Below, piece after piece: positions 3,323-29,625 of a stretch of 36,676 nucleotides of DNA (its first letter is position 1; every line of letters begins with the position of its first letter). The translations under genes and the position numbers were made by a program. Origin of the DNA: Gemmatimonadota bacterium (GTDB taxonomy: Bacteria; Gemmatimonadota; Gemmatimonadetes; Longimicrobiales; Gaopeijiaceae); the NCBI GenBank assembly GCA_009841475.1, contig VXLT01000052.1, positions 1 to 36,676 of the forward strand, read 5' to 3'. The notes under the pieces are model-generated. The model was not told the origin of the DNA and did no database searches. It saw nothing but the letters and a program-made list of their open reading frames with translations.

Positions 3323-3596
3323 CTCCCTGTCACGAAGTGAGGCCGCGCGCGGGGCCCGCTCGCGTTGGAACTGGTCCGAGGGCCGTCCTTCGCGCGCGAT
3401 CTCAACTCGTCAGAAACAGACCGCTCTTGAATCGAATTGTCCGATTTACATACTATGTTCCGGCGACTCTTGACAAGATACGTCGCTTTCACGATCTTTG
3501 CATCGACCCACGCCGGTCGGCGCGACGACATGCTCACTCGGAGCCGAGCGGGCCCGGATGGCTCTGGAAGTCAGCCCGAACTAGAAAGGGCAGTTG

Positions 3597-4835
3597 ATGC
3601 CGATTACCCAGCTTGAACTCGCTCGACGGCTCCGGGCCGCGCGCAAGGCCTGCCAAATCACCCAGGCGAAGGCGGCAAGAGTTCTCGGGATTCCGCGCTC
3701 CGCCGTGTCTCAGATGGAGACGGGCCAGCGGGGTGTGTCGGGCCTGGAACTCCATCGGCTGGCGCAGCTCTATTCCCGTGATGTCGGCGATTTCCTGGAG
3801 GACCGGTTCGAAGAGGGCAATCCGGTCACGGCCATGTTCCGTGCGCATCCTGAGCTGAGGGCGAGTTCAGCCGCGACGGCGTCTCTCCGCCTCTGCGGTG
3901 AACTGAATCGTGAGGTTGCGAATCTGCACGAGTTGCTTGAGCTTGACCGCGGAATCTCGACCATCCCTGAGTACTCTCTACGCGCCCCACGAACGAAGTG
4001 GGATGCGGTTCGACAGGGCAACGCCGCAGCCGAAAAGGAGCGGCGGCGGCTCGACTTGGGCATCGCGCCACTCCCGGACGTTGCCAGCCTTCTGGGGGCA
4101 CAGGGTATCAGCACCGTTCTGGTGAGAATGGACGATGGCATTTCCGGGCTTACTCTGATCAGCGCCGATGGCAATGTCCTGGTCGCCGCAAACCGGACCC
4201 ATCACATCCTGCGCCGCCGCTTCTCGTTCGCGCACGAGTACGCCCATGTACTTCTGGATCGCGAGCTGAGGGCGATCTTGAGCCACGCCCGAGACCGGTC
4301 GAATCTGATGGAAGTGCGGGCCAACGCGTTCGCGGCTTCATTCCTCATGCCCGCCGAGGGCGTGCGAGGCTACGTCAATGCACTGTCCAAGGGACTGGGG
4401 AGCCGGACGAGGGCTGACACTTTCGATGAAGAGGCAGTAACCCGCGTTGAGGGCAGAAAGCGCGTCGATACACAGAACATCGAACTACACGATGTGGTCA
4501 GGATGGCGCACCATTTCGGAGTCAGTTGCACCGCCATGCTCTATCGGCTGAAGGGGCTTGATTTCTTGACGGAGGAGGAGCGCTCATCCCTGGCCGGGCA
4601 GGACAGCATGGGGCTCAGCAAGGCCCTCCGGGGATTCCTTGGCCTTCCCAAACTCGACGATTCCGACGGCGAGATTCGGGTCCACGCCAGGTTCGTAGCG
4701 ATGGCGATTGAGGCGTTTATGCGCGGCAAGATCACGCAGCGAAAGCTCGATGAGTTGGGAAGACTGGTTCAGATATCAGATCTCAGCCGGCGCCTACTGC
4801 AGGCCGGCATTGGGACGGCGCGGTGCCGCCCTTAG
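3597..4835 (+). CDS. XRE-type HTH regulator fused to ImmA/IrrE-family zinc metallopeptidase
   Basis: N-terminal HTH (LRAARKACQITQAKAARVLGIPRSAVSQMETGQR) and HExxH motif in RRRFSFAHEYAHVLLDRE; ATG at 3597. Confidence 0.85.
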   Translation: MPITQLELARRLRAARKACQITQAKAARVLGIPRSAVSQMETGQRGVSGLELHRLAQLYSRDVGDFLEDRFEEGNPVTAMFRAHPELRASSAATASLRLCGELNREVANLHELLELDRGISTIPEYSLRAPRTKWDAVRQGNAAAEKERRRLDLGIAPLPDVASLLGAQGISTVLVRMDDGISGLTLISADGNVLVAANRTHHILRRRFSFAHEYAHVLLDRELRAILSHARDRSNLMEVRANAFAASFLMPAEGVRGYVNALSKGLGSRTRADTFDEEAVTRVEGRKRVDTQNIELHDVVRMAHHFGVSCTAMLYRLKGLDFLTEEERSSLAGQDSMGLSKALRGFLGLPKLDDSDGEIRVHARFVAMAIEAFMRGKITQRKLDELGRLVQISDLSRRLLQAGIGTARCRP

Positions 4836-4844: not shown

Positions 4845-4955
4845 TCAACCAGAGATAGATAGGACAGAGAGAAGGATGAGCGCGCCGAGCGCGAGCCCAA
4901 ATGCACTTCCTGCAAGGAACTTCCACCCATACCTATTCCTCCACACATGTTTCAT
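4845..4955 (-). CDS. 36-aa single-TM small protein
   Basis: MKHVWRNRYGWKFLAGSAFGLALGALILLSVLSISG; start preceded by AGGAGG with 6-nt spacing (reverse strand AAAAGGAGGATCGCCATG). Confidence 0.55.
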   Translation of the reverse strand: MKHVWRNRYGWKFLAGSAFGLALGALILLSVLSISG

Positions 4956-5093
4956 GGCGATCCTCCTTTTGTCCGCCTCGGGGGGTGGGCTTGGGAATGT
5001 GGTGAGCACCGGCCCTATGCCGACCGCATGGAAAACCGTAACCGGACAGGCGACGGGAGCGCAACCGTCAGTTGTCCAGATATGGAGCCACCG

Positions 5094-6186
5094 ATGATCG
5101 CCCCCCCTACCAGGGAAGTCACCGAACTTCTGCGGCGCGTCGACGACGCCCGCCACGCCAGGCAGGCAGAGTACGAGCGTTTTCTGACGGACCTGACACC
5201 GCGTCTGTCGGCGGCCGGCATCGCAGAGCGCAGGCGTGACCGCCATCTGGCGCACCGGTTCAACGTCTTCAGATACCTGAGCCAGGACGAACTCGGGCTG
5301 TCGCGCATCATCGCCGACCTGCTCGATCCGACCGCCGAGCACGGCCAGGGTGCGTCCTTTCTGGAAGCGATGCTGGACGCTCTGCCCGAAACGCGTGGTC
5401 GCTTCGGCACGCTGGATCGGACGGCTGCGGCCACCGGTGCGATCCGAGTGAGGACGGAGCGCCGGACCACGACGGGCAGGTTCATCGACATCACCGTGGA
5501 CATCCCCGAGGAGGGGGGTCGCTTCTGTCTGGCATTCGAGGCCAGCCCCGCCTCATCCACAAGTACCTGGCCGACAATCCGAGCCACCTGCGTGCCGCGC
5601 TGGCGGTGCATGACGCTTGGCGGCTTTTTCGGGAGGACGTGTGCCAGCGGTTCCTCGAACGCCTGCGCGTCACGGTGGAGAGTCGGCTGCGCGAGGAACC
5701 GTTCAGCGCCGATACCGACCTGCGCGTCCGGTGCCGTTACGATGGGAGGAAGAAGTACTCAAACGTCCTGTGGATCACTTCCGGCGTCTGGGGCAGGAAC
5801 GAAGACACGCCGTCCAACGAGGACGGCCGTAGCGCGATCAAGCTCCAGTCCGGGAAACGAGGCCCAAACAGCTGGTACTGGGGCGTCAGCAGCCCGACGC
5901 CCGAGAGCAGGATGACGGAACAGGAAAGGGAGTGCCGCGCCGAGCTTGTCGTCTCGCTACGCCGTCACGGACTTGCGCTGAAACACGGTGAGGAGGAGTG
6001 GTGGCTGTCGTGGGAATGGGTCCCACAGCACGGGGATTGGGATCACCTCGTACCCGAGCTACACGAAGAATGTGAGGCAGGGACCGGGCGGATCACCGAC
6101 TCTATGTCGACGGTTTGCTCCGGATTGCCGCGCACGCTATTCCGGCTATCAACGAGGTGGAGGCGGGCGAGCGGGCGGCCCATTGA
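5094..6186 (+). pseudogene. PD-(D/E)XK nuclease family protein, disrupted
   Basis: Frame 1: HRFNVFRYLSQDELGLSRIIADLLDPTAEHGQGASFLEAML...ERRTTTGRFIDITVDIPEEGGRFCLAFE. Frame 2: RLIHKYLADNPSHLRAALAVHDAWRLFREDVCQRFLERLRVTVESRL...WVPQHGDWDHLVPELHEECEAGTGRITD. Frame 3: DGLLRIAAHAIPAINEVEAGERAAH* ending at 6186. The expected ExK segment and following region are missing at the first junction. Confidence 0.75.
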
Positions 6187-6350: not shown

Positions 6351-7010
6351 TCACCGAAGTGAAGTACACTCCCTCAGCGCTTCAGACACCGGGATGCGGA
6401 GGGTCCTGATGGCGGGCTCGCCGCTGGTCTGTAGGGCGAATCGGTACTCCGACTGATAGGAAAACGACTTCGGCTTAATGAACCCGGTCCGTGAAGCCAG
6501 GTCAAAGGGCTCCTGGCCGGTGTCGAGCGTCCCGGAGATGTCCTCATAGGCGACCGGGCCGTGGGATACATGGACGACTCTATGGAACCCGGTGTCCGCA
6601 AGCGATAGCTTCTGCAGCAAGGGCTCGCCTGAGACGGGCTTGGTGTGAGTCAACTCGTCCAGCGTGATCGTGAGATCGACGCCCAGCTCCAGCGCGAAGG
6701 CATCGACATCCAGAATCTTCGTGATGGTGTCATTGTCGGGCGAGATGCGCTTCCCGAGCCTGTAGGCGTCTCGCTCGTTGGCGGGGCAGAATGCCGTGCA
6801 ATACACCCACGGATCAAGGCTGGTGGCGTATTGCGCCTCTGCCGAAAAGGAACTTGCTGAAACGTCAAACCCGGCTTTCGACAATTGCTTGGCGAAGAAG
6901 GGCGCGGCATTCAGCTTGACTCGTCCCTCCATCGGGTCATACCGGGCATCTTCAAGGTCTTCGCGCTCTCGGTATCGGGCCAGAGTCGACACCCATATCT
7001 CGTCACTCAT
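6351..7010 (-). CDS. DUF2971-like protein, possibly truncated
   Basis: MSDEIWVSTLARYREREDLEDARYDPMEGRV...FIKPKSFSYQSEYRFALQT; the KPxSxxxQxEYRF pattern resembles DUF2971-type proteins. The longer ORF to 7484 is chimeric with IS1380. Confidence 0.45.
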   Translation of the reverse strand: MSDEIWVSTLARYREREDLEDARYDPMEGRVKLNAAPFFAKQLSKAGFDVSASSFSAEAQYATSLDPWVYCTAFCPANERDAYRLGKRISPDNDTITKILDVDAFALELGVDLTITLDELTHTKPVSGEPLLQKLSLADTGFHRVVHVSHGPVAYEDISGTLDTGQEPFDLASRTGFIKPKSFSYQSEYRFALQTSGEPAIRTLRIPVSEALRECTSLR

Positions 7011-7189
7011 GCTTGGGGAATGCTCCCGCTTGGAAAACCGAACGACCGGCCGCCGGCCTCGCTCAGGGCGCAATGCACCATCGACTCGACGGATCACAAG
7101 GAGGGAGCGCTCCTGTCGCTCATCGTCGAGCACCTCGAAGCGCCGCTGCCCGGCATCAGGGGTACCGATCTCCTGGACGGCTATGCCCG

Positions 7190-7525
7190 CCCAGCCCTTC
7201 CGGCGTCCCTCGAGCCTGCCCGCCAGCAGGGCCAGCAGCGGGTCATGCCGCAGATCGTCGTGGTCGTTGAGGTCCTCGTACCCCAGGGCGATCCCCGTGA
7301 TGCGCTGCGCCACCAGCGTCCGAACCGAGTGCTCCGTGAGGCGGGGGTCGCGGTGATCCTTGAAGCACGCCGCCACCCGGTCGAAGAGTCCGACGAACCG
7401 GTCGATCTCCCGGAGCAGCAGCGCTCCGGCATCGACGTGATCGATCCGCCGTCGAACGCCGCGCTCACCGGACGGCGCCGGCACCCTTGAAATGCGAAGG
7501 AAAGCGGCTTACACTGTGTCGGCAT
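7190..7525 (-). mobile_element. IS1380-family transposase, N-terminal remnant (frameshifted)
   Basis: MPTQCKPLSFAFQGCRRRPVSAAFDGGSITS then, one frame over, AGALLLREIDRFVGLFDRVAACFKDHRDPRLTEHSVRTLVAQRITGIALGYEDLNDHDDLRHDPLLALLAGRLEGRRKG. Homology ends near 7190. Confidence 0.82.
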
Positions 7526-7910: not shown

Positions 7911-10900
7911 ATGAACACTCAGCCGGAAATCAGCCCCCGCTATAGGGCCTCTCGAGACATTGATGGCTTCCTGAATCCCGAAACAGGGCCACGAGATAGA
8001 TTGGGACAATTGTCCCGAGCGATGCTTGCGCATCAAGGAGCAGACGTTCGCTCTATCAGCAATGCCGATGCCATCACCCAGGTCCTGTCGCCACGCGAGC
8101 CCGCTAAGGACCAGCGGTTCTTTGCGGCAGTCTTTCTGCGCCTGCTCTCGACCGTACCGCAAGAAATCTACGATCTTGACAACAGCCGCCGGGTACTCGT
8201 CACGAAGCTTCTCGGCAGGTTCCCCGAGGTCTCACAGGCTCTCGAGATCGACAACAACACTCAGGGGTACGAGAGGCTTCACGCCTTCGAGGCTGCGGCC
8301 GCCGCGGCCGACGGATACCTAGCTCATGCTTTGGCTCCCAATAGATCCCTTGCATCCTTCGAGCAAACCCGCCAGCGCGTCATGCGCGTCTACCAGAATC
8401 CCCTAGTTGTCGCGATCGTCGTACCGTTTCTGCCTGACTTCCTGTCTAAGCGTAACATTGGTGTCCCTCTAAGCGCCGTTCACAGCCATGTCGTCTCGGA
8501 GCCGCGCCTCACGATCCCAACGTATACTGACGCGAAAGAGAGTCTTGAGACGATTCTCGACGACTGTACTCAATACGACACCCACTACGTCCGGGAGTTC
8601 TTCCGCCCGTTCTTCGCAGCCCTTCTCGATCGACTGACAACCGCGTTCGAATCCAGTCCCTTCAACCAACCCGCCCGCCTGTCACTAAAGGAACTGGGCA
8701 AGAACTATCCGTTCACGATCCCCGAGGCCGAGGTTCGCCTAGCATTCGCGGTCGAAAACGAGGGTCCCGGAATGGCGTTCGACGTCGGCCTGGAAATAGA
8801 CACGGACGACTATTTGTCCCTGAGCACCCCATCCCAATTCCTCGATCAAATTGACTCCGGCGAGCGACTTGAACCCATCGAGTTCGTGGCCAATGTGGCC
8901 ACGACCACCCCCACCTCGATACTTGTGGCCTGTTCCCTGACGTGGACCGACAGCGACGGGTCCCCCAGGACCGTCGAGGACTTCATTGATCTCCCGGCTC
9001 AACCAAGCAACATACCCTGGGAGGAACTCAAGCACGCCGAACCTTATAGCCTCGAACCTGTCACGAAGGCCAAAGACCTCATTGGACGCTCCCAGGAGAC
9101 GACACTGCTGATTTCAAAACTCCGAGCCGAAAGCGTTGGGTCGTTTTGCGTCTACGGTCAACGCCGCGTTGGCAAGACTTCTGTCGTCGTCACTCTGGAG
9201 GACATGCCCGAGCTCAACGGTATTACCATACTCAATCTCGAGACTGGAATGTTCATAGTCCCGGACGCGAGAGGTACTATTAACAACCTCGGCGCGATAA
9301 TCTGTAACGCCCTTATTGAACGGCACCCTAAGCTGGCAAGTTTGACGACGCCGGACTTTTCTGGAGCTCTCGCCCCACTCAGTGGCTTTCTCGCAGCAGC
9401 CTTTCGCCTCGATCCATCCCTGAGGCTCGTGGTCGTATTGGACGAGTTCGATGCACTGCCTCCTGCGCTCTATCGTAGGGGGGACATTAGCCATGCGTTT
9501 TTCACGACCATTCGATCACTCAGCGCTCGCCGACCGTTAGGGTTCATCTTGGTTGGAGGTGAGACGATGGCGGAGATACTGAGCACGCAAGGGGAGATGT
9601 TGAACAAGTTTCGCCCGCTCCGCATTGACTACCTAGAGAAGCAATCGCAATGGTCTGACTTCGTCCAATTGGTTCGCAGACCCATTGAGGATTGGGCAAC
9701 CATAACAGACGAAGCCGTGACAATGCTCTATGGCATGACCGCAGGCAATCCGTTTTTTACAAAATTCATATGCACAGAACTGGTCGAAGAGATGAAGCGG
9801 CGTAGGGACGCTTTCGTTACGGGCGCCGAGATGCGTCGTGCGATTGCAGTATCGGTCGGCCACGCCGGCATAAACAACTTTCAACATTTTTGGGATGACG
9901 GGGTTGTAGCATCTAGCGATGAGAGAATTGACGAGGAACGAGCGTGCCGGCGTCGAGTGATGTTGTCGCTCGGTGAGGTGCTTCGTTCGAAGGACCGATG
10001 TTCTGTCGAGAATATTGCCACGAGGGCTTCGCGCTTTGGCCTCGGCGAGACAGATGTCCACAGAGTGCTGGCCGATTTCGAGAAGCGAAAAGTGCTGGTT
10101 CAGAACAACGACGAGTATTCGTGTAAGGTCCGCCTTTTCGAGCGGTGGTTGGTTGACGAAGGCGTGAACGCATTGGATTTGACCTTGGTGGAAGAGGAGA
10201 GCTTGCGTACTAAGCTCGAGGCCGAGGAGAGACGGCGTGTGAAGGATCGGGAGATCAGCATCCTTGTGGACACCTGGGGGAATTACCGCGGAAGGCAGAT
10301 TACCGACATCAGAGTAAAATCCTGGCTGGAACAGTTCGAAACCACCGAGGAACAGAGAGTAGTGTTTGAGTTGCTAAAGAAGCTGCGTTTCTATTCGGGC
10401 GGCTTGATCCGCGAGAAGCTGCGGAGTGGACACGGGTTTGTGCTGCGCGAATTGGCCGGTCGCGGGGTGATTCGCAAGGCTCCAGAGGGTCGAGCGCGGA
10501 GAATGACGGACAATGTGCTGATCAGCTTCTACGGAGGCGACGGAAAGAGAGGGCACACGTATGCGAAGATGTATGCGGATGAGAATAACATCTATCATGG
10601 CCGGATAGTAGCGCCGAGACGGCTTCAGAAGAAGATTGAAAGCTTGGGAGACGTGGCCGGTGTTGTATTTGTTGACGATTTTATTGGGACAGGAAAGACT
10701 GCGGTTCGATCACTGCAGGACTACTTGCCCCCGTTGGCCCAACGTCTGGATCAGGCCCAAATTGATGTTTTTCTGGTGGCCATCTCGGGGTTTGCTAATG
10801 CTGCTGATAAGGTGAGCAGGGAAGTGTCGCCAATTGTTCACAGGTTTCGGGTCTCCGTGTCTGATCCACTTACCGATGCAGACAAGTGCTTTGGCGACAA

Positions 10901-11111
10901 ATCAGCAATCTTGCCGGTACCGACGGAAAGGGCGCGGGCCAAGGAAGTCATCGGCAGCTATGGGAGAAAGTTGTTTAAGGAATCGCCTTTTGGCTTTGGA
11001 AACTGTCAGGCGCTTGTAGTGTTTGAGAACACTTGTCCAAACAATAGTCTACCCATCTTGTGGGCGACCGGTTCCGAGGCCGGCTGGGAGCCGTTGTTCA
11101 GTCGGCCATGA
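7911..11111 (+). CDS. Large NTPase (AAA/STAND-like) with C-terminal phosphoribosyltransferase-like domain; putative conflict/defence protein
   Basis: 1066 aa. Walker A VYGQRRVGKTS (G at about aa 416, nt 9156); Walker B LVVVLDEFD (about aa 510, nt 9438); PRTase-like VVFVDDFIGTGKT (about aa 919-930, nt 10671); C-terminus NCQALVVFENTCPNNSLPILWATG...WEPLFSRP as in PRTase-CE type proteins; beta-sandwich-like region before the NTPase. Confidence 0.75.
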   Translation: MNTQPEISPRYRASRDIDGFLNPETGPRDRLGQLSRAMLAHQGADVRSISNADAITQVLSPREPAKDQRFFAAVFLRLLSTVPQEIYDLDNSRRVLVTKLLGRFPEVSQALEIDNNTQGYERLHAFEAAAAAADGYLAHALAPNRSLASFEQTRQRVMRVYQNPLVVAIVVPFLPDFLSKRNIGVPLSAVHSHVVSEPRLTIPTYTDAKESLETILDDCTQYDTHYVREFFRPFFAALLDRLTTAFESSPFNQPARLSLKELGKNYPFTIPEAEVRLAFAVENEGPGMAFDVGLEIDTDDYLSLSTPSQFLDQIDSGERLEPIEFVANVATTTPTSILVACSLTWTDSDGSPRTVEDFIDLPAQPSNIPWEELKHAEPYSLEPVTKAKDLIGRSQETTLLISKLRAESVGSFCVYGQRRVGKTSVVVTLEDMPELNGITILNLETGMFIVPDARGTINNLGAIICNALIERHPKLASLTTPDFSGALAPLSGFLAAAFRLDPSLRLVVVLDEFDALPPALYRRGDISHAFFTTIRSLSARRPLGFILVGGETMAEILSTQGEMLNKFRPLRIDYLEKQSQWSDFVQLVRRPIEDWATITDEAVTMLYGMTAGNPFFTKFICTELVEEMKRRRDAFVTGAEMRRAIAVSVGHAGINNFQHFWDDGVVASSDERIDEERACRRRVMLSLGEVLRSKDRCSVENIATRASRFGLGETDVHRVLADFEKRKVLVQNNDEYSCKVRLFERWLVDEGVNALDLTLVEEESLRTKLEAEERRRVKDREISILVDTWGNYRGRQITDIRVKSWLEQFETTEEQRVVFELLKKLRFYSGGLIREKLRSGHGFVLRELAGRGVIRKAPEGRARRMTDNVLISFYGGDGKRGHTYAKMYADENNIYHGRIVAPRRLQKKIESLGDVAGVVFVDDFIGTGKTAVRSLQDYLPPLAQRLDQAQIDVFLVAISGFANAADKVSREVSPIVHRFRVSVSDPLTDADKCFGDKSAILPVPTERARAKEVIGSYGRKLFKESPFGFGNCQALVVFENTCPNNSLPILWATGSEAGWEPLFSRP

Positions 11112-11159: not shown

Positions 11160-11985
11160 CGTTGCGTTTCGGCTCGGTGTCGCTGCCCTAACGAGGTCTT
11201 GGCGCTTGGTCTCGATACCCACATCACCTGCGGCGGCCGCCCGCTCTTCGCCCAGCTGCGGCCCGGCAACTCCGATCCCGCCGGGGGCGTGACTGCACCG
11301 CTCGGCCGCATCATCGAGCGGCTGCGCCAGGAGTGGCCCTGGCTGAAGATCCTGCTCCGGGCCGACTCGGCGTATGCCCGCGAGGAGCTGCTGGCGTGGT
11401 GCGAGGACAACGGCGTGGACTACGTCATCGGACTGGCGAAGAACTCGCGGCTCATCGAGAAGATCGGCTGGGAACTGGCCGACGCCGAGGGCCGAGTCAG
11501 CCCGTCACGGCCGGCCCGCACGCCGGTTCGCCGAGTTCCCCTACGCCACCCTGACGAGCTGGTCGCGACGGCGACGGGTCGTCGCCAAGGCCGAACACCT
11601 GCCGGGCAAGGCCAACCCCCGCTTCGTCGTCACCTCGCTGCCCGCCGCCACCTTCTCGGCCCGCACGGTCTACGAGCGCGTCTACTGCCCGCGGGGCGAC
11701 ATGGAGAACACCATCAAGGAGCAGCAGCTCGATCTGTTCTCCGACCGGACCTCGGCCTCACGCTTCGCCGCCAACCAGCTCCGGCTCCTCTTCGCGTCGG
11801 TCCTCTTCGACGCCCTCAGACGCATGCTCGCGGGCGCCCGCATCACGGTCTCGGTGCGAAGGGTCAGGGTCGCCATGGACTCCTCGCATCCCTCCGCCGC
11901 CGCCTTCGCCCACCTCCACGCCCGATTAGAGGGTAATCTCCCATCCTCTCCCGGACTCCCTCTCACGCCGCGCCGTGGGATCGCT
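11160..11985 (+). mobile_element. IS1380-family transposase, C-terminal remnant (frameshifted)
   Basis: LALGLDTHITCGGRPLFAQLRPGNSD...LRQEWPWLKILLRADSAYAREELLAWCEDNGVDYVIGLAKNSRLIEKIGWELAD, frameshift near 11500, then RRFAEFPYATLTSWSRRRRVVAKAEHLPGKANPRFVVTSL...VYERVYCPRGDMENTIKEQQLDLFSDRTSASRFAANQLRLLFASVLFDALRR. Confidence 0.88.
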
Positions 11986-13009
11986 GCGCCTCAGGACCGC
12001 CCCGAAGCCTCTCAGTCACCTGAATCCCCCTCCGCGCGCCTTCCACTGCACGTCCGAAAGACTCTTCGCTCCTTCGGGCGCGGTCCGACGTTACAATCAC
12101 GGCCTGGATACTGCCCTCAGGTCGCTACGCTGGTGCCATGTGACAAATGCGGGCTAGCACCGAGGCCGGAGTTTCGCCAGCGTTCGGTGGTACTCTGGGC
12201 GACAGGAGAGGGCTTTGAATAGGGCGTGGAGGAAAACCACGGCCGTGATGCCGCTGTTGTATACGCTCGACCAGTCTGCGACGGATGCCTGTGGATGCTG
12301 GTCACTATGAAGATTGCCTACAGCAACGGGGTTCCTGCCGTGGTCTATCGAGTACCAGATGGTGACGCCACGACCGACGGCTCGAAGGTTCCGGATGTCG
12401 TGGACCTTCCGGCTGGTGTGGGCTCCGGCCTGAGAGATTGCCGACAGAATCGAGGTCGTCACAGAGGCCTACGAGAAGGAGCACCTCCCGAATCACCCGG
12501 ATCCGCCGGACGTGCCGCCGGGACCCAGTCGACGGATGTTCGACACCATCACCGGGACGTTCGAGCGGTCGGTATCGACGGACTCTCCCGAGCCCGCGGA
12601 CGACTACCCGTCGCCTGAGGAGCTGCATGTTTCGACTCCGGTCACTTGGTGGTCCGAGGTTTTCACACTGCGCCACCGTCATCGGTGCCCGCGCTGTGGC
12701 CAACTGCGCCCAGGTGGACCGGGAGTTGGCGCCCAGTAGACTGAAGGACCGATCACCCTTCATTGTGCGCGGCAGGTAGGCAACATCCTCAAGTACCTGG
12801 AAGTGGGTGAACGGCCGCCGATCAGCTACAGCTACTACATGTAGGAGGGCGCGGGAGCCATCGCGCATCCGTTCTTACTCTTGGATGAGCCGTGAGGGCT
12901 CCCTTGAGCGGAGCTTCCCTGATCGAAGACATCCGGGAGCCCGATGACATGATGTCGCCCGCTCACCCTTCTGTGTATCGACTTGAAAGCCGTGATGTGA
13001 CGAGACCCG

Positions 13010-15013
13010 CTACGCAACTGCAGTGGCCACCCCCCCAACGATTTCGTCATCGACATACTCCTTGAAAGACTCAACGGTCGTGTGGCAGTCGAATCCAGCT
13101 TGGTTGACCGTCCGGTAGGTCTCCGCTGACTCGTTCAGCAGCAGCGCGACCGGGCGTCCCCGGCCCTCTGGCAGACCGGTCGGCCAAGCCAGGTCGATCG
13201 TCGCTTTGGGCTGTTGGGTCACGTCGTCGCGAAGCTCGTAGCCGAACTCGCCGGGAGGCAGGCCGCGCGCAGATATCCAGTCCTGAAGCTCCTCCAGAAT
13301 TCGGTCCTCATCCGCACTGGAGATGGGCGGTAGTACCGGTATCGAAACCACGGAGGGCTGTGGACCGGCCGGTTCGATTGCCTCAGCATGCGCGGCATAC
13401 AGGGTAGTCAGGTGCCGGTTGGCGGCGTCGGCAAGGAGACCGCGTCGAGCTTCAAGGAATGCCGGGTAGTTCCCGACCTTCCATAGCTCCTCGTCCATCG
13501 GAATCCACTGGGACTCCAGTACTCCGGGGTTCTTCTCCTCCACGAAACCGAAGTAGCCCTCAAGGCCGATCCGGCGGCGGTCGGGGTCGTGCGTACCCTT
13601 GACGTATTTGGATGGCCCTGCAGGACAGGCTGCGCCGATCCACTTGTTACACTCCGCGCTGAGAAAGCAGAGATTGGCCAGCGCGTTGACCTGTGGTTTC
13701 GTGTATTCGTCGTCATAGAGGACCGCCTTGGGAAAGATGTGGTGCACCTCCAGCTGGGCGCCCCCACCCAGAAGGCCCGCCTTGAGTTCCGTGCCATCGC
13801 AGAAGTTCCTTGATCCGCCTACGCGCGTCAGCCAGTAGAGCGCCGGATAGAGTCGCGCTCCCAGTGACCAAGCGTCGAAGTCGGAGGCCGTCACTCGGCG
13901 GCGCCCCCACTTCGTGCCGATGTCCGCGATCAATCGCTCTATGCCGTCCACGGTACCGTCCACCGCCCCGAGATCCTGCTTGATCTTGGTCTCAGTAGTA
14001 CCGGAGAAGCGACCGCGCATTCCCGCCTGCAAGAACCAGTAAAGCAATCGATTCCACTCTTCAGTGCTCATCATTCCAGATGGGCGTACTGCCAGATGGC
14101 GAATCATGACCGGGATCGAGAAGCGTCCGAAGAGAACACGGTTGTGGTCGAGCCCCAGCCGGAGCGAGATCTGATTCAACACCGTATCCACATGCTTGAC
14201 GGTGCGCTCCAGGCCAACCTTCACCTGCTCTCCCGGGGTGTCGTGCAGGTGCTGAAACGCTGCTTCACCCTTCACGACTGCGTTCATGCACCGGAGTAGC
14301 CAGTCCAGGGTGAAGTGGAAATCGTGATCCCGCCACTCCTTGACCTGCCGACCCATGTCCTTCCGCACCTCGGGCCACTTCGCCGCGATTTTCGCCAGTG
14401 CCAAGTCGCCACTCGACAATGTCGTGCCCGCGCTGTTCAGTCTGTTGAAGATGTCGACCACGGTGTCGATGTTCTTCTCTTCGTCCGCTATCTGCTCGAT
14501 GTGGAGATCTCTATTGGTCACACTGAGGAGTCGGAGCAGTCGATTGGTGACCTCGATATAGCGCGTCGCGTCAATGTCCTTGCCGGGGATCCCAAGCTTC
14601 TTCTCCAAGAGACTTGAAAGGCCACCGTCACCCGCCTTCATCACCTCAGTTACGTCGAACCAAAGCGGGTCGTCCCTCATCTTGATGGGCTGGAAGAACT
14701 CGAACTTTTTGCTGCCCGCGTGAAACCGCAGGTTCCTGAACGCCCGTTCGTCACCGCTAAAAAAGCTTGGCGCCCGCCCCTTGAGCACCCCGTACAGTGA
14801 GGTCACGCGTTGCTGGCCGTCCAGGAGGAGCTCTGTGGTTGCCCCATCGTCGTCGGTGGTCAGCCACGTCAGGAGACCGCCCACCGGATGTTCGCGGTAG
14901 AGTGAGTCGAAGAACTCACGGACCTGCCTGCCCTTCCAGACAAACCCGCGCTGGAACCTCGGGAGTGCGATCTTCCCTAGTTCGACGTTGCTCAGGATGG
15001 CGTCAACCTTCAT
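13010..15013 (-). CDS. GmrSD-like DUF262/DUF1524 (HNH) restriction-type protein
   Basis: DUF262-like N-terminus (LPRFQRGFVWKGRQVREFFDSLYREHPVGGLLTW, LLLDGQQRVTSLYGV) and HNH-type DUF1524 motif (EVHHIFPKAVLYDDEYTKPQVNALANLCFLSAECNKWIG). Confidence 0.85.
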   Translation of the reverse strand: MKVDAILSNVELGKIALPRFQRGFVWKGRQVREFFDSLYREHPVGGLLTWLTTDDDGATTELLLDGQQRVTSLYGVLKGRAPSFFSGDERAFRNLRFHAGSKKFEFFQPIKMRDDPLWFDVTEVMKAGDGGLSSLLEKKLGIPGKDIDATRYIEVTNRLLRLLSVTNRDLHIEQIADEEKNIDTVVDIFNRLNSAGTTLSSGDLALAKIAAKWPEVRKDMGRQVKEWRDHDFHFTLDWLLRCMNAVVKGEAAFQHLHDTPGEQVKVGLERTVKHVDTVLNQISLRLGLDHNRVLFGRFSIPVMIRHLAVRPSGMMSTEEWNRLLYWFLQAGMRGRFSGTTETKIKQDLGAVDGTVDGIERLIADIGTKWGRRRVTASDFDAWSLGARLYPALYWLTRVGGSRNFCDGTELKAGLLGGGAQLEVHHIFPKAVLYDDEYTKPQVNALANLCFLSAECNKWIGAACPAGPSKYVKGTHDPDRRRIGLEGYFGFVEEKNPGVLESQWIPMDEELWKVGNYPAFLEARRGLLADAANRHLTTLYAAHAEAIEPAGPQPSVVSIPVLPPISSADEDRILEELQDWISARGLPPGEFGYELRDDVTQQPKATIDLAWPTGLPEGRGRPVALLLNESAETYRTVNQAGFDCHTTVESFKEYVDDEIVGGVATAVA

Positions 15014-16845: not shown

Positions 16846-19800
16846 TCACCCCATCCCCGCGTACCGCCTCAGCACCTCAACCCCTTGGTCCCTCAGCCGG
16901 TTCAGCATCTGCTGGAGCGCCCCCGGGTTCTTGCCATCCAATTCCGCCCGGTACGCATCGTCGGACGAGACCCTCGGTACCTGCCCACCAACAATGCTCC
17001 GAAGCCCCCGATAGGGTACGCCCCTTTCACACAGCCGCTCCACCGCATCGTCGTCCGCCGGAGTGAAGAATCCCTCTTGGACAGCCAGGATGTGGGCGCT
17101 CTCGAATAGAATCCGGCGGGCCTCCTCGCGGAGGCCACGGCGCTTCGCTCTTGTCATTTCTTCCTCCACCGCGGCAATAGCCCCGTCGAGTCGCGACCGC
17201 GCGTCTGCGAGGACCTCGCGGGCCCTACCGCGATCGGTGTCGGACCACCCGGCCTCGTGTTCCTTGGCGGCTCGCTCGTACGCCGAAATGGTGGCTACCT
17301 CACCAATCTGACCCTTCTCCTTGGCCACGCAGACCGCCACTGGGGGACGACCGCTGTCGCGCAGCAGCATGGCCGCCCCCGCCTCTTCGCTGTCCACCGT
17401 CCCCGCTGACTGATCCCGTGGTCCAATGACCTCGTCCAGCAGGGCGTCGAACGTGGGGTTTCCGTAGGTCAGCAGCTCAACGCTGGTCGGATGGCTATCG
17501 AATACCCAAGGGCTGAATGTCACTGCCCGGGGTGTGTCACCGGAATGAAGCCAGTATGCGTCGGGAATGGTGGCATGCGGGAGGAAACGCTGCCGCGTCA
17601 CATCGGAGCCGAGGAACGCACGCTTGATGTCCTCCACCCTAACCGGACTCTCGGGTGCAGTCGAGATTCCGATGCTCTCGTCCACCAACGCGTCCAGGTC
17701 GATTCCGGCCTGGTCATGGGCGTCGGCCTGCTGTTCGATCTCCGACAGGGTATCGTCGAAGTCCCTCTCCCGCTCTTGGCGGCCCATCATCGCCAGCTTC
17801 GTGATTGCGCGGCCGACATTGTGGAGAATGGGCTGGAGCGTCCCGACGACATGCTCGAACCAGTCGATCCGGTCGCTCAGCCGAGCGTAGACGATCGCCT
17901 CGACAGTGTCCCGGAAGAAGTAGTTATGGACATGGACCTCGTCGTGCCGCTGCCCGATGCGGTCGATGCGGCCGATACGCTGCTCGACGCGCATCGGGTT
18001 CCAGGGCATGTCGTAATTGATCAGGACTCCGCAGGTCTGGAGGTTCAAGCCCTCGCTGGCCGATTCCGTACAGATCAAAAGCCTGATGCTGTCTCCTCTG
18101 CGGAACGCCTCCTTGATTTCCTCCTTGTCGCGGAGCACCCATCCCTCTCCGTCCCAAGACTCGCCGCCCCGTCCCGAGTAGCAGGCGACACCAGACCCGT
18201 AGACCGAACGGAGACTCTCGCGCAGGTAGTCCATCGTGTCGGTGTACTGCGTGAAGAGGATCGCGGAGTCGTGAGTGTGAAAGATGGCCGTCAGTTGAGC
18301 CTTGAGGAATTCCAGTTTCGAGTCGGTGGCCAGGGCATTCAGGTCGGAGATGAAGTCGTCCAAGTAGGCCAGTTCCGTCTCGCGGGCCTGGCGGTCCAGC
18401 GTTCCCAAGTCCTCCACGGCGTCCATCCCGAGGTCATCCTGCTCCAGGTCCTCTTCGGTCAGGCCGATGTTCGCCACGGCATCGGCGTCACCGACGAGGA
18501 AGGCCCGCCGGCGTCCGAGACTCTCGCGAGCGGCATGGAAGGAGCTCGTGAGGCGTCGGCGGTACACCGTCATGACGAATCCGAGCCCCCTTCTACGCGC
18601 TTCGTATTTCCGGTAGAAATGGGAGATATATTCTTCGATCCGGTCGTAGAGCTCCTGTTCCTCCGGCGTGAACTCGATCCACTCGTTTCTCGGTTTTCGC
18701 TTGGGCACCCGTTCGCTCAGAATGCCACGCTGCCGATAGCGGTGGAGCAGATCACGACCGTTCCGCCAAACGAAGGTTCGTATGGGCGTATGGTGGCGGA
18801 TCATGTCACTGAGCACGGCTCTCGCTTCGGCGCCCAGTGCCTCGATCGTCGCGCGGCCTTTGATCGTGTGGGGAAGGGTCTTGACGGTGTTCCAGGTGAC
18901 CGGGCCGAGCTGACTGCGTGCCCGCTCCTCGAATGCCGGATCGATCTGGCCGCCGGTCTTGAGGAAATCCTTCCACATCCCGAGGAGAAACGGCCAGTCC
19001 CGCTGCTTGTAGGGATTCCTGACCTCCTCGAAGAACTTCAGGAAGTTCTCCTCATTCGCTCCCCAGCGGCCCTCGAGGCCGAGTAGCTTGAGCAGATCCC
19101 ACACCTCGATGGGATGCACCTGCATCGGTGTGGCCGTCAGCAAGTAGAGACACCGGGTGCGATCCTTCAGCCCCGGACGCTTGCCATGGCCCCCAAGTAG
19201 TTGCAGCAGGTGGTTGGGACGCCGGGCGCGGATGCCAAACTCCTTCCGCCTCGCGTGGTGCGCCTCGTCAACGAGGACCATGTCCCACTCGGGTTCCAGG
19301 ACTTCGTCCCGGCGGTCAGTGCGCTTGGCCAGCTGGCTGGAAGCGATCAGGTGATCGGCGCAACCCCATGGTGGCCCGTTGATCTGCCGCTCCACGCCGT
19401 GCACATCGACCAGAGCGCCGCGTTCGTAGCGAGGAATGTTGAGCGCGCACTTCTCCCACAGCTCCTCTTGCCACTGCCGGACGACACTCGCCGGCGCGAG
19501 GATTAGGGACCGCTGGACGCGCTTCGTTACGATGAGCTGACGGAGGGCAAGCCCCGCCTCGATCGTCTTTCCGAGCCCCACCTCGTCGCAGAACAGGAAG
19601 CTGCGCGGGAAGCGATCGACCACCGCGTCGATCACGCGGTCCTGGTGGGGCCAAGGGCTAACCGAGCTGGTCTCGATTCCGATTCGCGCGGCTTGCGGCA
19701 TGAACGGAGCGTCGCGAAGGAAACGGAACGTGGCCAGCTCGTGGCGCGATCGCCGCCTCTCCAAGGGATCGGTGGTAGGCACCTTGCTCGGTGCATAGTC

Positions 19801-20508
19801 CAGCAACCGCTGCCGCACGGCCTCTGGAAGCGGCAGCGCAATCCAGCCTGGATCTCCCGGTTCCCAGAGTGCCTGGAAGCGACGTTCGATCGGTGTGATG
19901 TAGTGGTCGGCGGGTGGCATACTGTGGGGGCCAGTCTGCCGCGGCCAAGACGCGAACACATGGAAGGTCTCGTAGTTCGACTGCCACCCACTTCGGGATT
20001 CGTTGCTGCTGCCGCTGAACGCCAACTTGTTTCCCTCGGCGTCCACGAAGACCCCCTCCTTGGGATGATAGTACTCCTGCGAGTCCGGCCTGGGGATGGG
20101 TTGGCCGTCGGGTCCCTTGGGGAGAACGACCCGGATCTCCAGCCTGTCGTGCGCGACGAGCCATGCCAGTGTCTCCAGCCGGGCAACCATGTCGGGGCCG
20201 GCCTCACTCTCGTGCTGATCGAACCGCCGGAGCATCGCCTTCTCCACGCTGCCCCTCAGCGATTCCCCGCGGAGGATCGCCTCCACATCCTCGGATGCGA
20301 GGTCCGCACCGCAAAGGAGCTGCATGGACCCACCGTTTGCGATCAGACGCGCGATCCCGGCCGCAGCAATGGCGAGCGCCGAGCTGGAGAAGTAGCCGGT
20401 GGACCGGCGGTAGAGCACGCTGCGTTCGAGCGCCGGCAGGTAGAAGTCGTGGAGGCGGTCGTCGCGCGGGCCGTAGGTGAACCGGAAGGGGTGGGACGGG
20501 AGGGTCAC
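16846..20508 (-). CDS. SNF2/superfamily II helicase with N-terminal phospholipase-D-like domain
   Basis: 1220 aa. N-terminus FYLPALERSVLYRRSTGYFSSSALAIAAAGIARLIANGGSMQLLCGADL...; Walker A FCDEVGLGKTIEAGLAL; DEAH in VLVDEAHHARRKE; LLTATPMQ; C-terminal LICTESASEGLNLQTCGVLINYDMPWNPMRVEQRIGRIDRIGQ. Confidence 0.92.
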   Translation of the reverse strand: MTLPSHPFRFTYGPRDDRLHDFYLPALERSVLYRRSTGYFSSSALAIAAAGIARLIANGGSMQLLCGADLASEDVEAILRGESLRGSVEKAMLRRFDQHESEAGPDMVARLETLAWLVAHDRLEIRVVLPKGPDGQPIPRPDSQEYYHPKEGVFVDAEGNKLAFSGSSNESRSGWQSNYETFHVFASWPRQTGPHSMPPADHYITPIERRFQALWEPGDPGWIALPLPEAVRQRLLDYAPSKVPTTDPLERRRSRHELATFRFLRDAPFMPQAARIGIETSSVSPWPHQDRVIDAVVDRFPRSFLFCDEVGLGKTIEAGLALRQLIVTKRVQRSLILAPASVVRQWQEELWEKCALNIPRYERGALVDVHGVERQINGPPWGCADHLIASSQLAKRTDRRDEVLEPEWDMVLVDEAHHARRKEFGIRARRPNHLLQLLGGHGKRPGLKDRTRCLYLLTATPMQVHPIEVWDLLKLLGLEGRWGANEENFLKFFEEVRNPYKQRDWPFLLGMWKDFLKTGGQIDPAFEERARSQLGPVTWNTVKTLPHTIKGRATIEALGAEARAVLSDMIRHHTPIRTFVWRNGRDLLHRYRQRGILSERVPKRKPRNEWIEFTPEEQELYDRIEEYISHFYRKYEARRRGLGFVMTVYRRRLTSSFHAARESLGRRRAFLVGDADAVANIGLTEEDLEQDDLGMDAVEDLGTLDRQARETELAYLDDFISDLNALATDSKLEFLKAQLTAIFHTHDSAILFTQYTDTMDYLRESLRSVYGSGVACYSGRGGESWDGEGWVLRDKEEIKEAFRRGDSIRLLICTESASEGLNLQTCGVLINYDMPWNPMRVEQRIGRIDRIGQRHDEVHVHNYFFRDTVEAIVYARLSDRIDWFEHVVGTLQPILHNVGRAITKLAMMGRQERERDFDDTLSEIEQQADAHDQAGIDLDALVDESIGISTAPESPVRVEDIKRAFLGSDVTRQRFLPHATIPDAYWLHSGDTPRAVTFSPWVFDSHPTSVELLTYGNPTFDALLDEVIGPRDQSAGTVDSEEAGAAMLLRDSGRPPVAVCVAKEKGQIGEVATISAYERAAKEHEAGWSDTDRGRAREVLADARSRLDGAIAAVEEEMTRAKRRGLREEARRILFESAHILAVQEGFFTPADDDAVERLCERGVPYRGLRSIVGGQVPRVSSDDAYRAELDGKNPGALQQMLNRLRDQGVEVLRRYAGMG

Positions 20509-20511
20509 GCG

Positions 20512-21354
20512 CTACGCATGGGGTGTCTGACGAGAGAAGACATATGACGCGACTTGACCTTCGTACACCTGGGCCGGGTTCAGAACCGCGTACTTCATCC
20601 AAAGACGCCACACGGCCTGCCATCTCTCGCCAGCGGGATCCGCTTCCTGTACCGGCAGCCCGAAACTCTTCGCGTCGGCCGCGGAAATGACGGCACCGTG
20701 ACTCTTCGGGCCCCCTATCAGAGGATCCTTCAGGGCCTCGGTGAGCGTCGCGACATCGGCCGGGGTGCGCTCAGCGACACACGCCAGCGCTTCCTTGACG
20801 AGATCATCCGTGCGGCCGAGTTGGTCGCGCGCCTGCTGCACCATCAGGGCGGTCACCGGTTCCAGCAAGGAGGCGTGAAGCGGATAGGTGCCGGGATGGT
20901 GCTGGATTCGCTGTTCCGCCGACTCGACCGCCGCGATTATGGCCCTGGCCGAGACGAGAGACCCGTCCGGCTGCTGGAACTGCGGGTCCACTGGCCCGAG
21001 GTCGCTGGTCGGGCCCATGTAGATGTGGTGAGCTCCCACGACGAATAGAGTGCCAGCGCTCTTCGCCTGGTCCGGCACGATCACAGTCAGTTCACGGCAT
21101 CGGGACTGCGCCTGACGGATCAGCCGGAGAGCGGTCTCACCGTCTCCCCCCTGCGTCGCCAGCATGACGTGAAGGTCTTTCTGCGGGTCGGCATCGAACA
21201 AGGTCTCTTCGAACAGCTGAATGCTGTGGGGGAAAAGGCCGTCCTGCATGACGACGAGCCGACAGTTGTAGTCCTCCTGATACTGGCGGATCAGACCCTG
21301 GCGCTCATACCGGGCTGCGTGGCCCGCCTCGTAGAGCGGCGTGCGGACGGTCAC
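20512..21354 (-). CDS. SDH_sah-type (ClpP/SppA fold) serine protease
   Basis: HVMLATQGGDGETALRLIRQAQ, VIVPDQAKSAGTLFVVGAHHIYMGPTSDLGPVDPQFQ match serine dehydrogenase proteinase-like signatures. GTG start at 21354 overlaps the upstream stop. Confidence 0.8.
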   Translation of the reverse strand: MTVRTPLYEAGHAARYERQGLIRQYQEDYNCRLVVMQDGLFPHSIQLFEETLFDADPQKDLHVMLATQGGDGETALRLIRQAQSRCRELTVIVPDQAKSAGTLFVVGAHHIYMGPTSDLGPVDPQFQQPDGSLVSARAIIAAVESAEQRIQHHPGTYPLHASLLEPVTALMVQQARDQLGRTDDLVKEALACVAERTPADVATLTEALKDPLIGGPKSHGAVISAADAKSFGLPVQEADPAGERWQAVWRLWMKYAVLNPAQVYEGQVASYVFSRQTPHA

Positions 21355-21569
21355 GGTTCGGGGAAACGCGACTGCCTCAAGATCGGGAGACCGCGTTTGT
21401 CGAAGGTCGCTGGCCGGTCGCCGCGGGCTTTTCGGGCCTGTACGCGGGCCTGCTTGGCGATCTCGATGCGCTCCCGCCAATCGGGATCGAACCCGGACGG
21501 GGGCGCTAGAGCCGGGGAGTGGTCAGAGCTCGCGGAAGCGGTTTCTTTCTTTGGCCGGGAATCGGTCAT
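21351..21569 (-). CDS. Small hypothetical protein (72 aa) coupled to the SDH protease
   Basis: MTDSRPKKETASASSDHSPALAPPSGFDPDWRERIEIAKQARVQARKARGDRPATFDKRGLPILRQSRFPEP; 4-nt overlaps at both ends. Confidence 0.6.
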   Translation of the reverse strand: MTDSRPKKETASASSDHSPALAPPSGFDPDWRERIEIAKQARVQARKARGDRPATFDKRGLPILRQSRFPEP

Positions 21570-21808
21570 TGATGGGCCTCCTTGGCAGCAAGCAAGATCA
21601 ATACGCGCGCGAGATTGTCGAGCGCCAGTACCGCATCAAGGTCGTTGGAGTTCCTTTCCAGTGCTTCGTGGATGATCCCGGAGTCCGTCAGGATGGTCCG
21701 ATTGGGAGTCTTGTGACGGCGCGTCCCACGCACGGGGCGCCAAGACGAAGTATAGCGGTTCCGATGGGCGGGTCCATGTTCTCGCGGGACTCTGGCCGGC
21801 CGGTTCAT
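21566..21808 (-). CDS. Small hypothetical protein (80 aa)
   Basis: ATG at 21808 overlaps upstream TGA (ATGA 21805-21808); stop overlaps downstream ATG (21566-21569). C-terminus DSGIIHEALERNSNDLDAVLALDNLARVLILLAAKEAHQ. Confidence 0.5.
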   Translation of the reverse strand: MNRPARVPREHGPAHRNRYTSSWRPVRGTRRHKTPNRTILTDSGIIHEALERNSNDLDAVLALDNLARVLILLAAKEAHQ

Positions 21809-22209
21809 CGCTCCACCCCAAACAGCAGATGCACCGCGAATGCCCGCTTGGCCCGAGCATCTGCATCCTCGAAGGCTTGAATCGCCTGCCGAGCCGTGGC
21901 GATCCGGTCCTGAACCTCCGACTTGAACCATTCGCCGTGCGGATCACGGTCTGCAGCGTGGCGGCGGTCCTGTGATTCCACGAATAACCGCGCGATTCCG
22001 CGAATGTTCTCTGGAAACGACGCGATCGCCGGGCGGGTGCACGCCTGCCGTGCGCTGTGGGGGTCCAGCGCCAAGTACACCCGGCGCCACTCGGTCTCTG
22101 TCGTTTCGGTGACCTTGCGACCCACCAAGGCGTCCGCACAGGATTTCGCCAGACAGTGGAAGAGCGCTTGGTACACGGTGCTCGTCGCACGGCGCAGGTC
22201 GGTCTCCAA
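21805..22209 (-). CDS. HEPN/UPF0332-like small protein (start uncertain, coding likely extends upstream to about 22257)
   Basis: TDLRRATSTVYQALFHCLAKSCADALVG...FVESQDRRHAADRDPHGEWFKSEVQDRIATARQAIQAFEDADARAKRAFAVHLLFGV; upstream in-frame sequence reads SDLIRSAERQLPRGRGRPLE. Confidence 0.5.
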   Translation of the reverse strand: METDLRRATSTVYQALFHCLAKSCADALVGRKVTETTETEWRRVYLALDPHSARQACTRPAIASFPENIRGIARLFVESQDRRHAADRDPHGEWFKSEVQDRIATARQAIQAFEDADARAKRAFAVHLLFGVER

Positions 22210-22258
22210 GGGCCTTCCGCGACCGCGTGGCAGCTGCCTTTCGGCAGACCGAATGAGG

Positions 22259-22570
22259 TCAGAAGCCTTCAGGTTTCCAGTCCCCCGCGTCGTCCTTGGC
22301 GATGAAGCGCGTGACCGGGATGGCGGTCACACCCATTTCCCCAAACATCTTCGCCACCCGATCCAGGAAAGCCGGTCGCCCGGGCGTCTGCAGCTCTGAC
22401 GCCTCTCCCTCGTAGACCGCATAGACATCCAGCACGACATCCCCGTACGCCGATTGTCGCGGTCGCACCCAGACACCGCTGAAAGCCACGCTGGGAAACG
22501 TCTCTGCGATGATTCGCTGGATTGCCGTTCTGACGTCGGTCAGGATCTCATCTCCGACGGATGCGTTCAT
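22259..22570 (-). CDS. Hypothetical small protein (103 aa)
   Basis: MNASVGDEILTDVRTAIQRIIAETFPSVAFSGVWVRPRQSAYGDVVLDVYAVYEGEASELQTPGRPAFLDRVAKMFGEMGVTAIPVTRFIAKDDAGDWKPEGF; operon position. Confidence 0.65.
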   Translation of the reverse strand: MNASVGDEILTDVRTAIQRIIAETFPSVAFSGVWVRPRQSAYGDVVLDVYAVYEGEASELQTPGRPAFLDRVAKMFGEMGVTAIPVTRFIAKDDAGDWKPEGF

Positions 22571-22658
22571 TGGAGGGTCTTTCGCTGCTCCCGTGGTTGG
22601 CCGGGCCGCGTGCCAAGTGGCTCCCAACCTGCCGGCCGTCCGGCGCGCCCGTCAACAC

Positions 22659-25541: not shown

Positions 25542-26404
25542 TCAGCCTCCGTTCGGTGGCCGCCAGTTGCGTCCGGCGCCTGCGTCGCGAACAGGTTCGT
25601 CTGCCGCTCGTGCGGAACAGGCAGGACCCCGACGATCGTCCACGGATTCGGCGCGCGTTTGTGCCACGCGAGCGTGGTGCCGAGGAAGAGGTGCAGGTCG
25701 GACTCGCGGAACTGGTCGAAGTACTTCTGCCTCACCTTCGCGAGGGCCTCAGCCTCGTCGCCGTTAGTCAGCCGCACGCAGTTTCGATACAGTGCTCCGA
25801 GCTGCCACTCCAAGACCCGCATGCGGCTCCGCTTCCCGTCGGCGTCCTCGATACGATAGTGGAAGTTGTAGGGGACCTTGTCGACGACCTGAAAAGTCCG
25901 ATGCCACGACTCCTCGTCAAAGAGGTCCCGCTGGCTCACGATGGCCCGCGCTGCCTCCAGTCTCGCCGGGTCCCACTCGCGATCCGCCATCTCCCAACCG
26001 AAGTCGATCACGCGCGCAGGCTTGAAGATCGCGAGGGACACGCCATCGTCCTGCGCGGCGCGTATCAGCTCGTCGAGTCTGCGGTAGACCCGTGCTCGCC
26101 GGAGGAGAAGCTCCCGTCGCTCTCGCCAATCGTCGGAGGTGCCGACATGACTGATCCACTCGATCTCGCCGGTTGGCCGGTGCGACTCGGGACGGGGGTC
26201 CGCCGAATGCTTGATCAGGGGGCATTCGATCCAATCGTAGAGCTTGTACTGCTCTCCTTCGCCCAGCCGCCGAAACGGCACGGGATAGAGACGCACCCAG
26301 GTTCCGTCCTCGCGGATTCCCGCGGTACAGACGGTCTCGCCGTACTTCGAAGAAAGCTCCGGATAAGTCTTGACCGTGACGAGTATGCGCTCCCTGTCAG
26401 TCAT
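25538..26404 (-). CDS. Dual OB-like domain protein
   Basis: MTDRERILVTVKTYPELSSKYGETVCTAGIREDGTWVRLYPVPFRRL...KLYDWIECPLIKHSADPRPESHRP; stop overlaps DUF1156 GTG start (GTGA 25538-25541). Confidence 0.65.
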   Translation of the reverse strand: MTDRERILVTVKTYPELSSKYGETVCTAGIREDGTWVRLYPVPFRRLGEGEQYKLYDWIECPLIKHSADPRPESHRPTGEIEWISHVGTSDDWRERRELLLRRARVYRRLDELIRAAQDDGVSLAIFKPARVIDFGWEMADREWDPARLEAARAIVSQRDLFDEESWHRTFQVVDKVPYNFHYRIEDADGKRSRMRVLEWQLGALYRNCVRLTNGDEAEALAKVRQKYFDQFRESDLHLFLGTTLAWHKRAPNPWTIVGVLPVPHERQTNLFATQAPDATGGHRTEAE

Positions 26405-26408
26405 GGCG

Positions 26409-27353: not shown

Positions 27354-27568
27354 CCGACGGAATCGCCGCCCTTGAGCTTGCATCCAGCCGTAAATCGCGG
27401 AGTTCGTCTTCGATCCAGCGCGCCGGTTCCTGACCGAGAGCCCGCTGGGAGCGTCGGCTGGCCTCACCCGTGTTGCTAGCGGATCGGGCGCCGTCGGATC
27501 GGTCGGCGACCTCTATGGCCCCGTCATGAACAACGCGGGAGCGTGCAGGGCTTCTTCTCTCCTCGCGG

Positions 27569-27590
27569 GTGGGGTGGCGAATCACCCCAC
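27569..27590. repeat. Hairpin GTGGGGTG-GCGAAT-CACCCCAC inside a small repeat-like intergenic block
   Basis: 8-bp perfect stem and 6-nt loop; flanked by CCCGTCAT (27520-27527), ATGACGGG (27594-27601), CCCGTCAT (27620-27627). Confidence 0.6.
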
Positions 27591-27638
27591 GGAATGACGG
27601 GTGCGGGGTTCTCTGTGTGCCCGTCATGCCTGGCGCGT

Positions 27639-27827
27639 TCACTCGCGGATCTGACCGCGGGCGCTGCGCACAAGCCGCCGCAACTCGTCGCGGACGTTGT
27701 CGAAGGACCGCTCAGCATCTGCGATAGCCTGCTGACGGATCTCCTCGTAAACGCGAGCCTTCCTAGGGTCGGTCCGACGTCCGTCCGGGTCCTCGATGCG
27801 CTCAAGCTTAAACGGCTTGTACTTCAC
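27639..27827 (-). CDS. Small charged hypothetical protein (62 aa)
   Basis: GTG start at 27827: MKYKPFKLERIEDPDGRRTDPRKARVYEEIRQQAIADAERSFDNVRDELRRLVRSARGQIRE; overlaps the upstream gene end by 20 nt. Confidence 0.6.
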   Translation of the reverse strand: MKYKPFKLERIEDPDGRRTDPRKARVYEEIRQQAIADAERSFDNVRDELRRLVRSARGQIRE

Positions 27828-29115: not shown

Positions 29116-29133
29116 CGTCTCGGTTCCCTCCCG

Positions 29134-29616: not shown

Positions 29617-29625
29617 GATCCAAAC

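Follow-up and report, generated by a model that had tools for sequence, protein, structure and literature searches.

The analyzed stretch of DNA, in the following called the window, is 36,676 nt long and constitutes an entire contig of a 4.18-Mb Gemmatimonadota genome assembled in 369 contigs. A single open reading frame (ORF) at positions 7911..11111 on the plus strand, starting with ATG and lacking internal stops, encodes a protein of 1066 amino acids (aa) in which an NTPase is fused to a PRTase-CE domain. The region was thus correctly read as one protein in the earlier note, and the genome contains one copy of it.

Using motifs conserved in the family, we scanned 84,980 species genomes, found 163 relatives and kept the best 80. 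The closest relative among these is encoded in a Gemmatimonadetes MAG (L033) and shares 65% identity with the window protein across its full length, which gives a hint, but no proof, of the host phylum. In the alignment this homolog opens with MASQPEIS and the window protein with MNTQPEIS, which supports the start codon. Compared with L033, the gene is under purifying selection (dN 0.26, synonymous sites near saturation), with low dN across all domains. Because full-length homologs of 27–65% identity occur in about ten phyla and purifying selection is evident, a chance ORF is excluded. A decayed gene was also considered and is ruled out by the intact ORF and the purifying selection.

The GC content is 55.4% for the gene, 54.0% from residue 381 onward and 63.2% for the remaining window. 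The 3′ part had been noted before as less GC-rich, which is correct (54.0% versus 63.2%), but the low GC content is not limited to the 3′ part and extends over the whole gene. The gene was probably acquired by horizontal transfer. Fragments of IS1380-family transposases, recognized by Pfam and NCBIfam, lie on both sides of it: an N-terminal part on the left flank (7209..7433, minus strand, within ORF 6351-7484) and a C-terminal part on the right flank (11488..11823, plus strand, within ORF 11374-12222). The two remnants are located on opposite strands and point outward; they cannot be the halves of a single element that a simple insertion interrupted.

The window is a defense island. Upstream of the fused gene lies a gene for an HTH and peptidase M78 protein of the RmrA/CapP type (3594-4835), next to a PD-(D/E)XK_4 nuclease-like gene (4947-5915); downstream follows a GmrSD_N/HEC-05-like gene (13010-15013). 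The minus strand carries a BREX-related Type-1/Hma-like cluster (16846-32760) with genes for an SNF2 helicase (16846-20508), a ClpP-like SDH protease (20512-21480), a DUF1156 methylase/HmaB-like protein (22659-25541) and a DUF499/HmaC-like ATPase (29626-32760), in which the ClpP-like protease and DUF488/PDC-M19 (PDC-M19A/B) genes are inserted. The trio of helicase, DUF1156 and DUF499 genes represents the Type-1 BREX-related layout (PMC12839542).

Homologous loci adjoin genes for ZacC (L040), HmaB and HmaC (L038), a type IIG restriction-modification (R-M) enzyme (L042) and DrmA (L044), and CBASS, Ssp and R-M proteins were found in a pooled scan of their neighbors. The pool of homologous loci matched 184 PADLOC models compared to 94 for a control of 75 genomic ORFs, but this control pool was not clean (the matches listed for it are mostly type I specificity subunits, one member each), so we limit the claim to the named defense neighbors and give no enrichment statistic. 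At L038:4853-14712, HmaB and HmaC flank a frameshifted fused gene that has their orientation and looks as though it were nested within an Hma operon.

Domain architecture of the fused protein

An AlphaFold2 (AF2) model of the full protein, built from 18 relatives, reached a mean pLDDT of 88.8. The N-terminal region is all-helical (residues 9-248; 7935..8654, plus strand, as for all features of the protein) and, according to alignment and dN, is the least conserved stretch; we regard it as a candidate sensor or adaptor. It is followed by an Ig/CARDB-like beta-sandwich (residues 257-361; 8679..8993), identified from model and alignments, with eight strands in the model. The helical/beta-sandwich N-terminus proposed earlier therefore reappears in the model. 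A motif of the sandwich, NxGxGxAFDV, is common to both clades of fused proteins. The members of the second clade (L053, L055, L057, L058, L061, L064) are larger, with ~1300-1400 aa, and possess an additional N-terminal region that appears OST-HTH/LOTUS-like by eye; Pfam gave no confirmation of this in the two members scanned.

The NTPase module spans residues ~389-660 (9075..9890). Pfam (AAA_22 and AAA_16; AAA_22 at residues 410-556, E=2.7e-06), the P-loop NTPase fold in the AF2 model and Foldseek agree with the previous assignment as a Walker A/B NTPase. Walker A is GQRRVGKTS (residues 416-424; 9156..9182), and its lysine, invariant in the alignments, is K422 and not K423 as numbered before. 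The Walker B strand with DEFD (residues 506-514; 9426..9452) contains the invariant D511, E512 and F513. Upstream, an hhGR motif (LIGR) includes G392 and R393, which are invariant in 18 fused proteins, and downstream lies a STAND-like GxP motif, GNP (residues 612-614; 9744..9752). G612, N613 and P614 are likewise invariant in these 18 sequences, and the N and P also in the comparison with the second, longer clade. Altogether, Walker A, the Walker B hhhLDEFD, LIGR and GNPFF show little or no variation among the 18 proteins and are kept in the longer clade. Between NTPase and effector follow a helix, a winged helix (residues 699-738) and a long helix (residues 741-775; together 9918..10235); the AF2 pattern at 699-738 bears out the wHTH-like linker suggested earlier.

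Hence, hhGR, Walker A, Walker B, a GxP-like motif and a winged helix, which characterize STAND or ORC-Cdc6-type AAA+ proteins, are all present in alignment and model. Foldseek searches with the NTPase-containing model favored RuvB, ORC/Cdc6 and RFC, the NCBIfam orc1/cdc6 model TIGR02928 was matched by 5 of 18 members, and some relatives matched nSTAND (weakly) or archaeal ATPase profiles. Given these mixed matches, we call the module an AAA+/STAND-type NTPase and make no choice between the two classes.

The C-terminal part (residues 802-1065; 10314..11105) is a PRTase-CE domain, an effector domain family reportedly named by Nicastro et al. in 2023, a study that PMC10853773 and PMC12839542 cite. 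The HMM and structure searches proposed in the earlier note both point to this assignment: the PF24390 profile matches along its entire length (positions 1-253 of 253, E=1.3e-44, 153.4 bits versus a cut-off of 27), and Foldseek places PRTases first on the predicted model. Since searches with the full model were dominated by the AAA+ domain, the C-terminal domain was modeled separately from 51 sequences (pLDDT 93.7, pTM 0.90). Its best PDB matches are orotate and uracil PRTases (OPRT, E 2.8e-4; UPRT, E 6.4e-4), the sole matches below E=0.001, and UPRT/OPRT chains occupy most of the top ranks, with low Foldseek TM-scores to true PRTases of about 0.25-0.32 of the query. When PDB was searched with a profile built from these 51 sequences, the matches were weak, centered on the PRPP loop and nearly all to PRTases or PRPP synthetases. 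Sequence searches of PDB did not turn up an experimental structure for any true relative of PRTase-CE, and phmmer with the full protein yielded no real relative there.

Type I PRTases use a DD pair to bind PRPP or a nucleotide by its ribose hydroxyls. The window protein carries the PRPP-loop motif VVFVDDFIGTGKT (residues 918-930; 10662..10700), recognized in the earlier note and found here to be intact. Within its DDxxGTG core, D922 and D923 are identical in all 51 aligned homologs and G928 in 50 of them, with a near-invariant GTG/GSG loop; by analogy, D922/D923 would bind the same ribose hydroxyls. A second signature closes the protein, PNNSLPILW...W.PLF.R (residues 1043-1065; 11037..11105; family consensus PNN[ST]LPIxW...W.P.F.R). 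The conservation of this tail, remarked on before, is complete for P1043, L1047, P1048, W1051 and W1059 (51/51). The KSG loop of the family reads KRG in the window protein (residue 880, 10548-10550). The serine is found in 47 of the 51 homologs and the arginine also in the two nearest relatives of the window protein; as judged from this replacement, its catalysis may differ from that of the family.

Distribution and partner genes

Among the best 80 of the 163 relatives, approximately 33 loci encode the fused protein, several of them frameshifted or ending at contig ends. They are distributed over about ten phyla: Gemmatimonadota, Myxococcota, Verrucomicrobiota, Cyanobacteriota, Bacteroidota, Chloroflexota, Acidobacteriota, Thermodesulfobacteriota, Armatimonadota and Pseudomonadota. 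Looking at 98 related genomes, we detected the full-length protein in only one of 23 genomes of the genus, the one containing the window; the other 75 relatives lacked it. No full-length relative was found in plasmids and phages, and a scan of viruses with patterns derived from the single protein gave no match, the patterns being too specific. This patchy occurrence bears on the possibility that the protein regulates nucleotide salvage as a housekeeping or metabolic factor and takes no part in conflicts. The PRTase fold is mainly metabolic, but the rarity within the genus, the scattering over so many phyla and the position of the gene in an AT-rich island between IS remnants and among defense genes make such a role very unlikely.

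In a tree of PRTase domains, 29 fused proteins fall on one side of a branch with an SH-aLRT of 93 (no bootstrap). This one-sided grouping fits a single fusion event, followed by wide transfer.

Free-standing PRTase-CE genes have partners. Counting the PRTase-CE found with the chosen motifs, an ORC-CDC6-like ATPase was nearby in 34 of 52 free-standing loci, a retron-type reverse transcriptase (RT) in 14 and neither in 4. Probes for ORC-CDC6, RT, ThyX and methyltransferase (MTase) matched at none of the 33 fused loci, several of which are on short contigs. In addition, when stop-to-stop ORFs up to 6 kb away from the fused gene were compared between 30 loci, no family recurred in at least three of them. 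With an ATPase or RT at 48 of 52 free-standing loci compared to 0 of 33 fused ones, the fused NTPase apparently takes the place of a partner encoded in trans. That no conserved partner was seen with the cis form is our chief new argument for a single-gene system.

A conserved cassette among the free-standing loci consists of genes for a DNA methyltransferase, PRTase-CE, an ORC-CDC6-like ATPase (PF24389) and a 330-aa protein (L020:2745-8192, L025:4031-9892, L026:3992-10545, L027:3636-11670 and many of L065-L112). This operon shares the pairing of an ATPase and PRTase-CE with the window protein but encodes them in separate genes, and we detect no common family for its ATPase and the fused NTPase: hhalign gave a probability of 23.5% over 48 P-loop columns, and the similarity was non-significant beyond the P loop. 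PRTase-CE was therefore probably combined with an NTPase on at least two independent occasions, in trans on one and in cis on the other. An origin of the fused gene by fusion of the two-gene ORC-CDC6/PRTase operon was considered too, but the profile comparison of the NTPases gives it no support.

Two further observations concern the free-standing forms. A gene for ThyX, an FAD-dependent thymidylate synthase, adjoins the cassette in about ten loci, an association suggesting that thymidine metabolism or modified DNA is involved. At L021:1677-5047, a 515-aa protein combines a lactonase-like metallo-beta-lactamase domain with PRTase-CE, and its gene overlaps one for a 617-aa protein that appears RT-like by eye.

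Relation to known systems

With the PRTase-CE family (PF24390) the window domain shares the whole profile, the PRPP-loop motif and the NNxLPIxW C-terminal signature. In the window protein the domain is not free-standing but fused behind a module of sandwich, NTPase and winged helix. The effector family is already known and curated in Pfam. The literature searched contains no description of the fused family; the study by Nicastro et al. 2023 lies outside that search and may list an NTPase-PRTase-CE fusion. Neither PADLOC nor NCBIfam contains a model dedicated to it.

The closest NCBIfam entry is NF053875, the PRTase-like anti-phage protein DS32_1, which by its name we take to stem from DefensePredictor. 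It shares a C-terminal match with the window protein, limited to the C-terminal 36 profile positions and scoring 27.8 bits versus a cut-off of 250, so the window protein is not a member. Among its relatives, 15 of 18 match this profile, all weakly (best E 3.2e-12). The MTase/PRTase/ORC-CDC6 cassette, considered as a possible DS-32 system, gave no NCBIfam match.

Type III-A retrons consist of a PRTase, a winged-helix protein, an RT and a non-coding RNA (PMC12548924). Their PRTase effector is homologous to the window domain, but the window protein has its NTPase in cis and no RT was found with it. One alternative is that the protein derives from a type III-A retron as an orphaned or fused effector and still works with RT and msDNA. 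In its favor, residues 795-1065 are matched by PADLOC PRTase_III-A profiles (3e-35), and several free-standing relatives adjoin retron RTs. However, tblastn with three RT queries found no match in the window, no RT was detected at the 33 fused loci, no msr/msd RNA matched Rfam at gathering score (Rfam may lack type III-A RNAs) and the fused PRTase domains lie on their own side of the tree. The missing RT largely refutes this explanation, which we consider extremely improbable.

A DprA-PRTase pair protects against T7 and lambda (PMC9122126), and a PRTase-containing system was validated in DefensePredictor (PMC13092281). In the DprA-PRTase or ShosTA-type pairs (PMC9122126, PMC11878078), which we liken to the window protein by their described layout and not by sequence, the PRTase is the likely effector or toxin under a partner module. 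There, DprA is a separate partner, whereas the control module of the window protein is fused and of the AAA+ type; no DprA profile matched among the scanned flanking ORFs, the flanks consisting of IS1380 fragments and other defense genes. STAND/Avs-type immune NTPases also combine an NTPase switch and an enzymatic effector in one polypeptide. In the window protein, however, the effector is C-terminal and PRTase-like, and its relatives give only weak nSTAND profile matches.

Proposed function

The earlier note had called the gene a candidate single-gene conflict system. The PRTase-CE match, the PRTase fold, the NTPase, the defense island and the lack of a partner among 30 loci all agree with this. 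We consider a single-gene, NTPase-gated immune protein targeting nucleotides or PRPP the best explanation, and a reasonably probable one. Sensor and switch would be formed by the N-terminal helical and beta-sandwich regions, the AAA+/STAND-like NTPase and the winged helix. An invader-linked cue would alter the nucleotide state of the NTPase, perhaps with oligomerization, and this change would release or assemble the C-terminal PRTase-CE domain. Through its intact PRPP/ribose-5-phosphate-binding loop, this domain would then consume PRPP or break or modify nucleotides, stopping phage replication and probably the cell as well (abortive infection). The effector role is proposed by likeness to type III-A retrons, DprA-PRTase and the DefensePredictor system, in which PRTases are probable effectors; the trigger, the gating, the substrate and the outcome for the cell we infer. 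The literature searched contained no measurement of the reaction of any PRTase-CE.

The chief rival reverses the roles of the domains. PRTase-fold regulators such as PyrR or PurR are established, and the PRTase domain could correspondingly be a ligand sensor of PRPP or nucleotide levels disturbed by phage, with the NTPase and winged helix acting on DNA or another target. A conserved PRPP-loop motif combined with an altered KSG loop would fit such a sensor, as would the winged helix in the AF2 model. Yet free-standing PRTase proteins hold the effector position in type III-A retrons and DprA-PRTase, PRTase-CE has a large ATPase as its partner in trans, and the 30 fused loci show no conserved target or regulated neighbor gene; we judge the sensor role unlikely.

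Returning to the NTPase-gated effector, the presence of the fused protein across about ten phyla without the partner genes of its cousins suggests a self-contained anti-virus system. For the family as a whole, we see about even chances that the ~33 fused proteins make up a single-gene immune family that has no name so far. In such a family, PRTase-CE would be gated in cis by an AAA+/STAND-type NTPase acquired separately from the ORC-CDC6 partner of the free-standing systems, and one protein would unite sensing, switching and the attack on nucleotides or PRPP.

Retrons, DprA pairs and ATPase operons all contain PRTase-like effectors. The comparison of the cis and trans forms points to NTPase coupling as a general means of restraining a PRTase-CE effector. 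With switch and effector in one polypeptide and no RNA, RT or partner gene detected, the fused protein is the simplest bench system for studying the PRTase-CE reaction and its activation by the NTPase.
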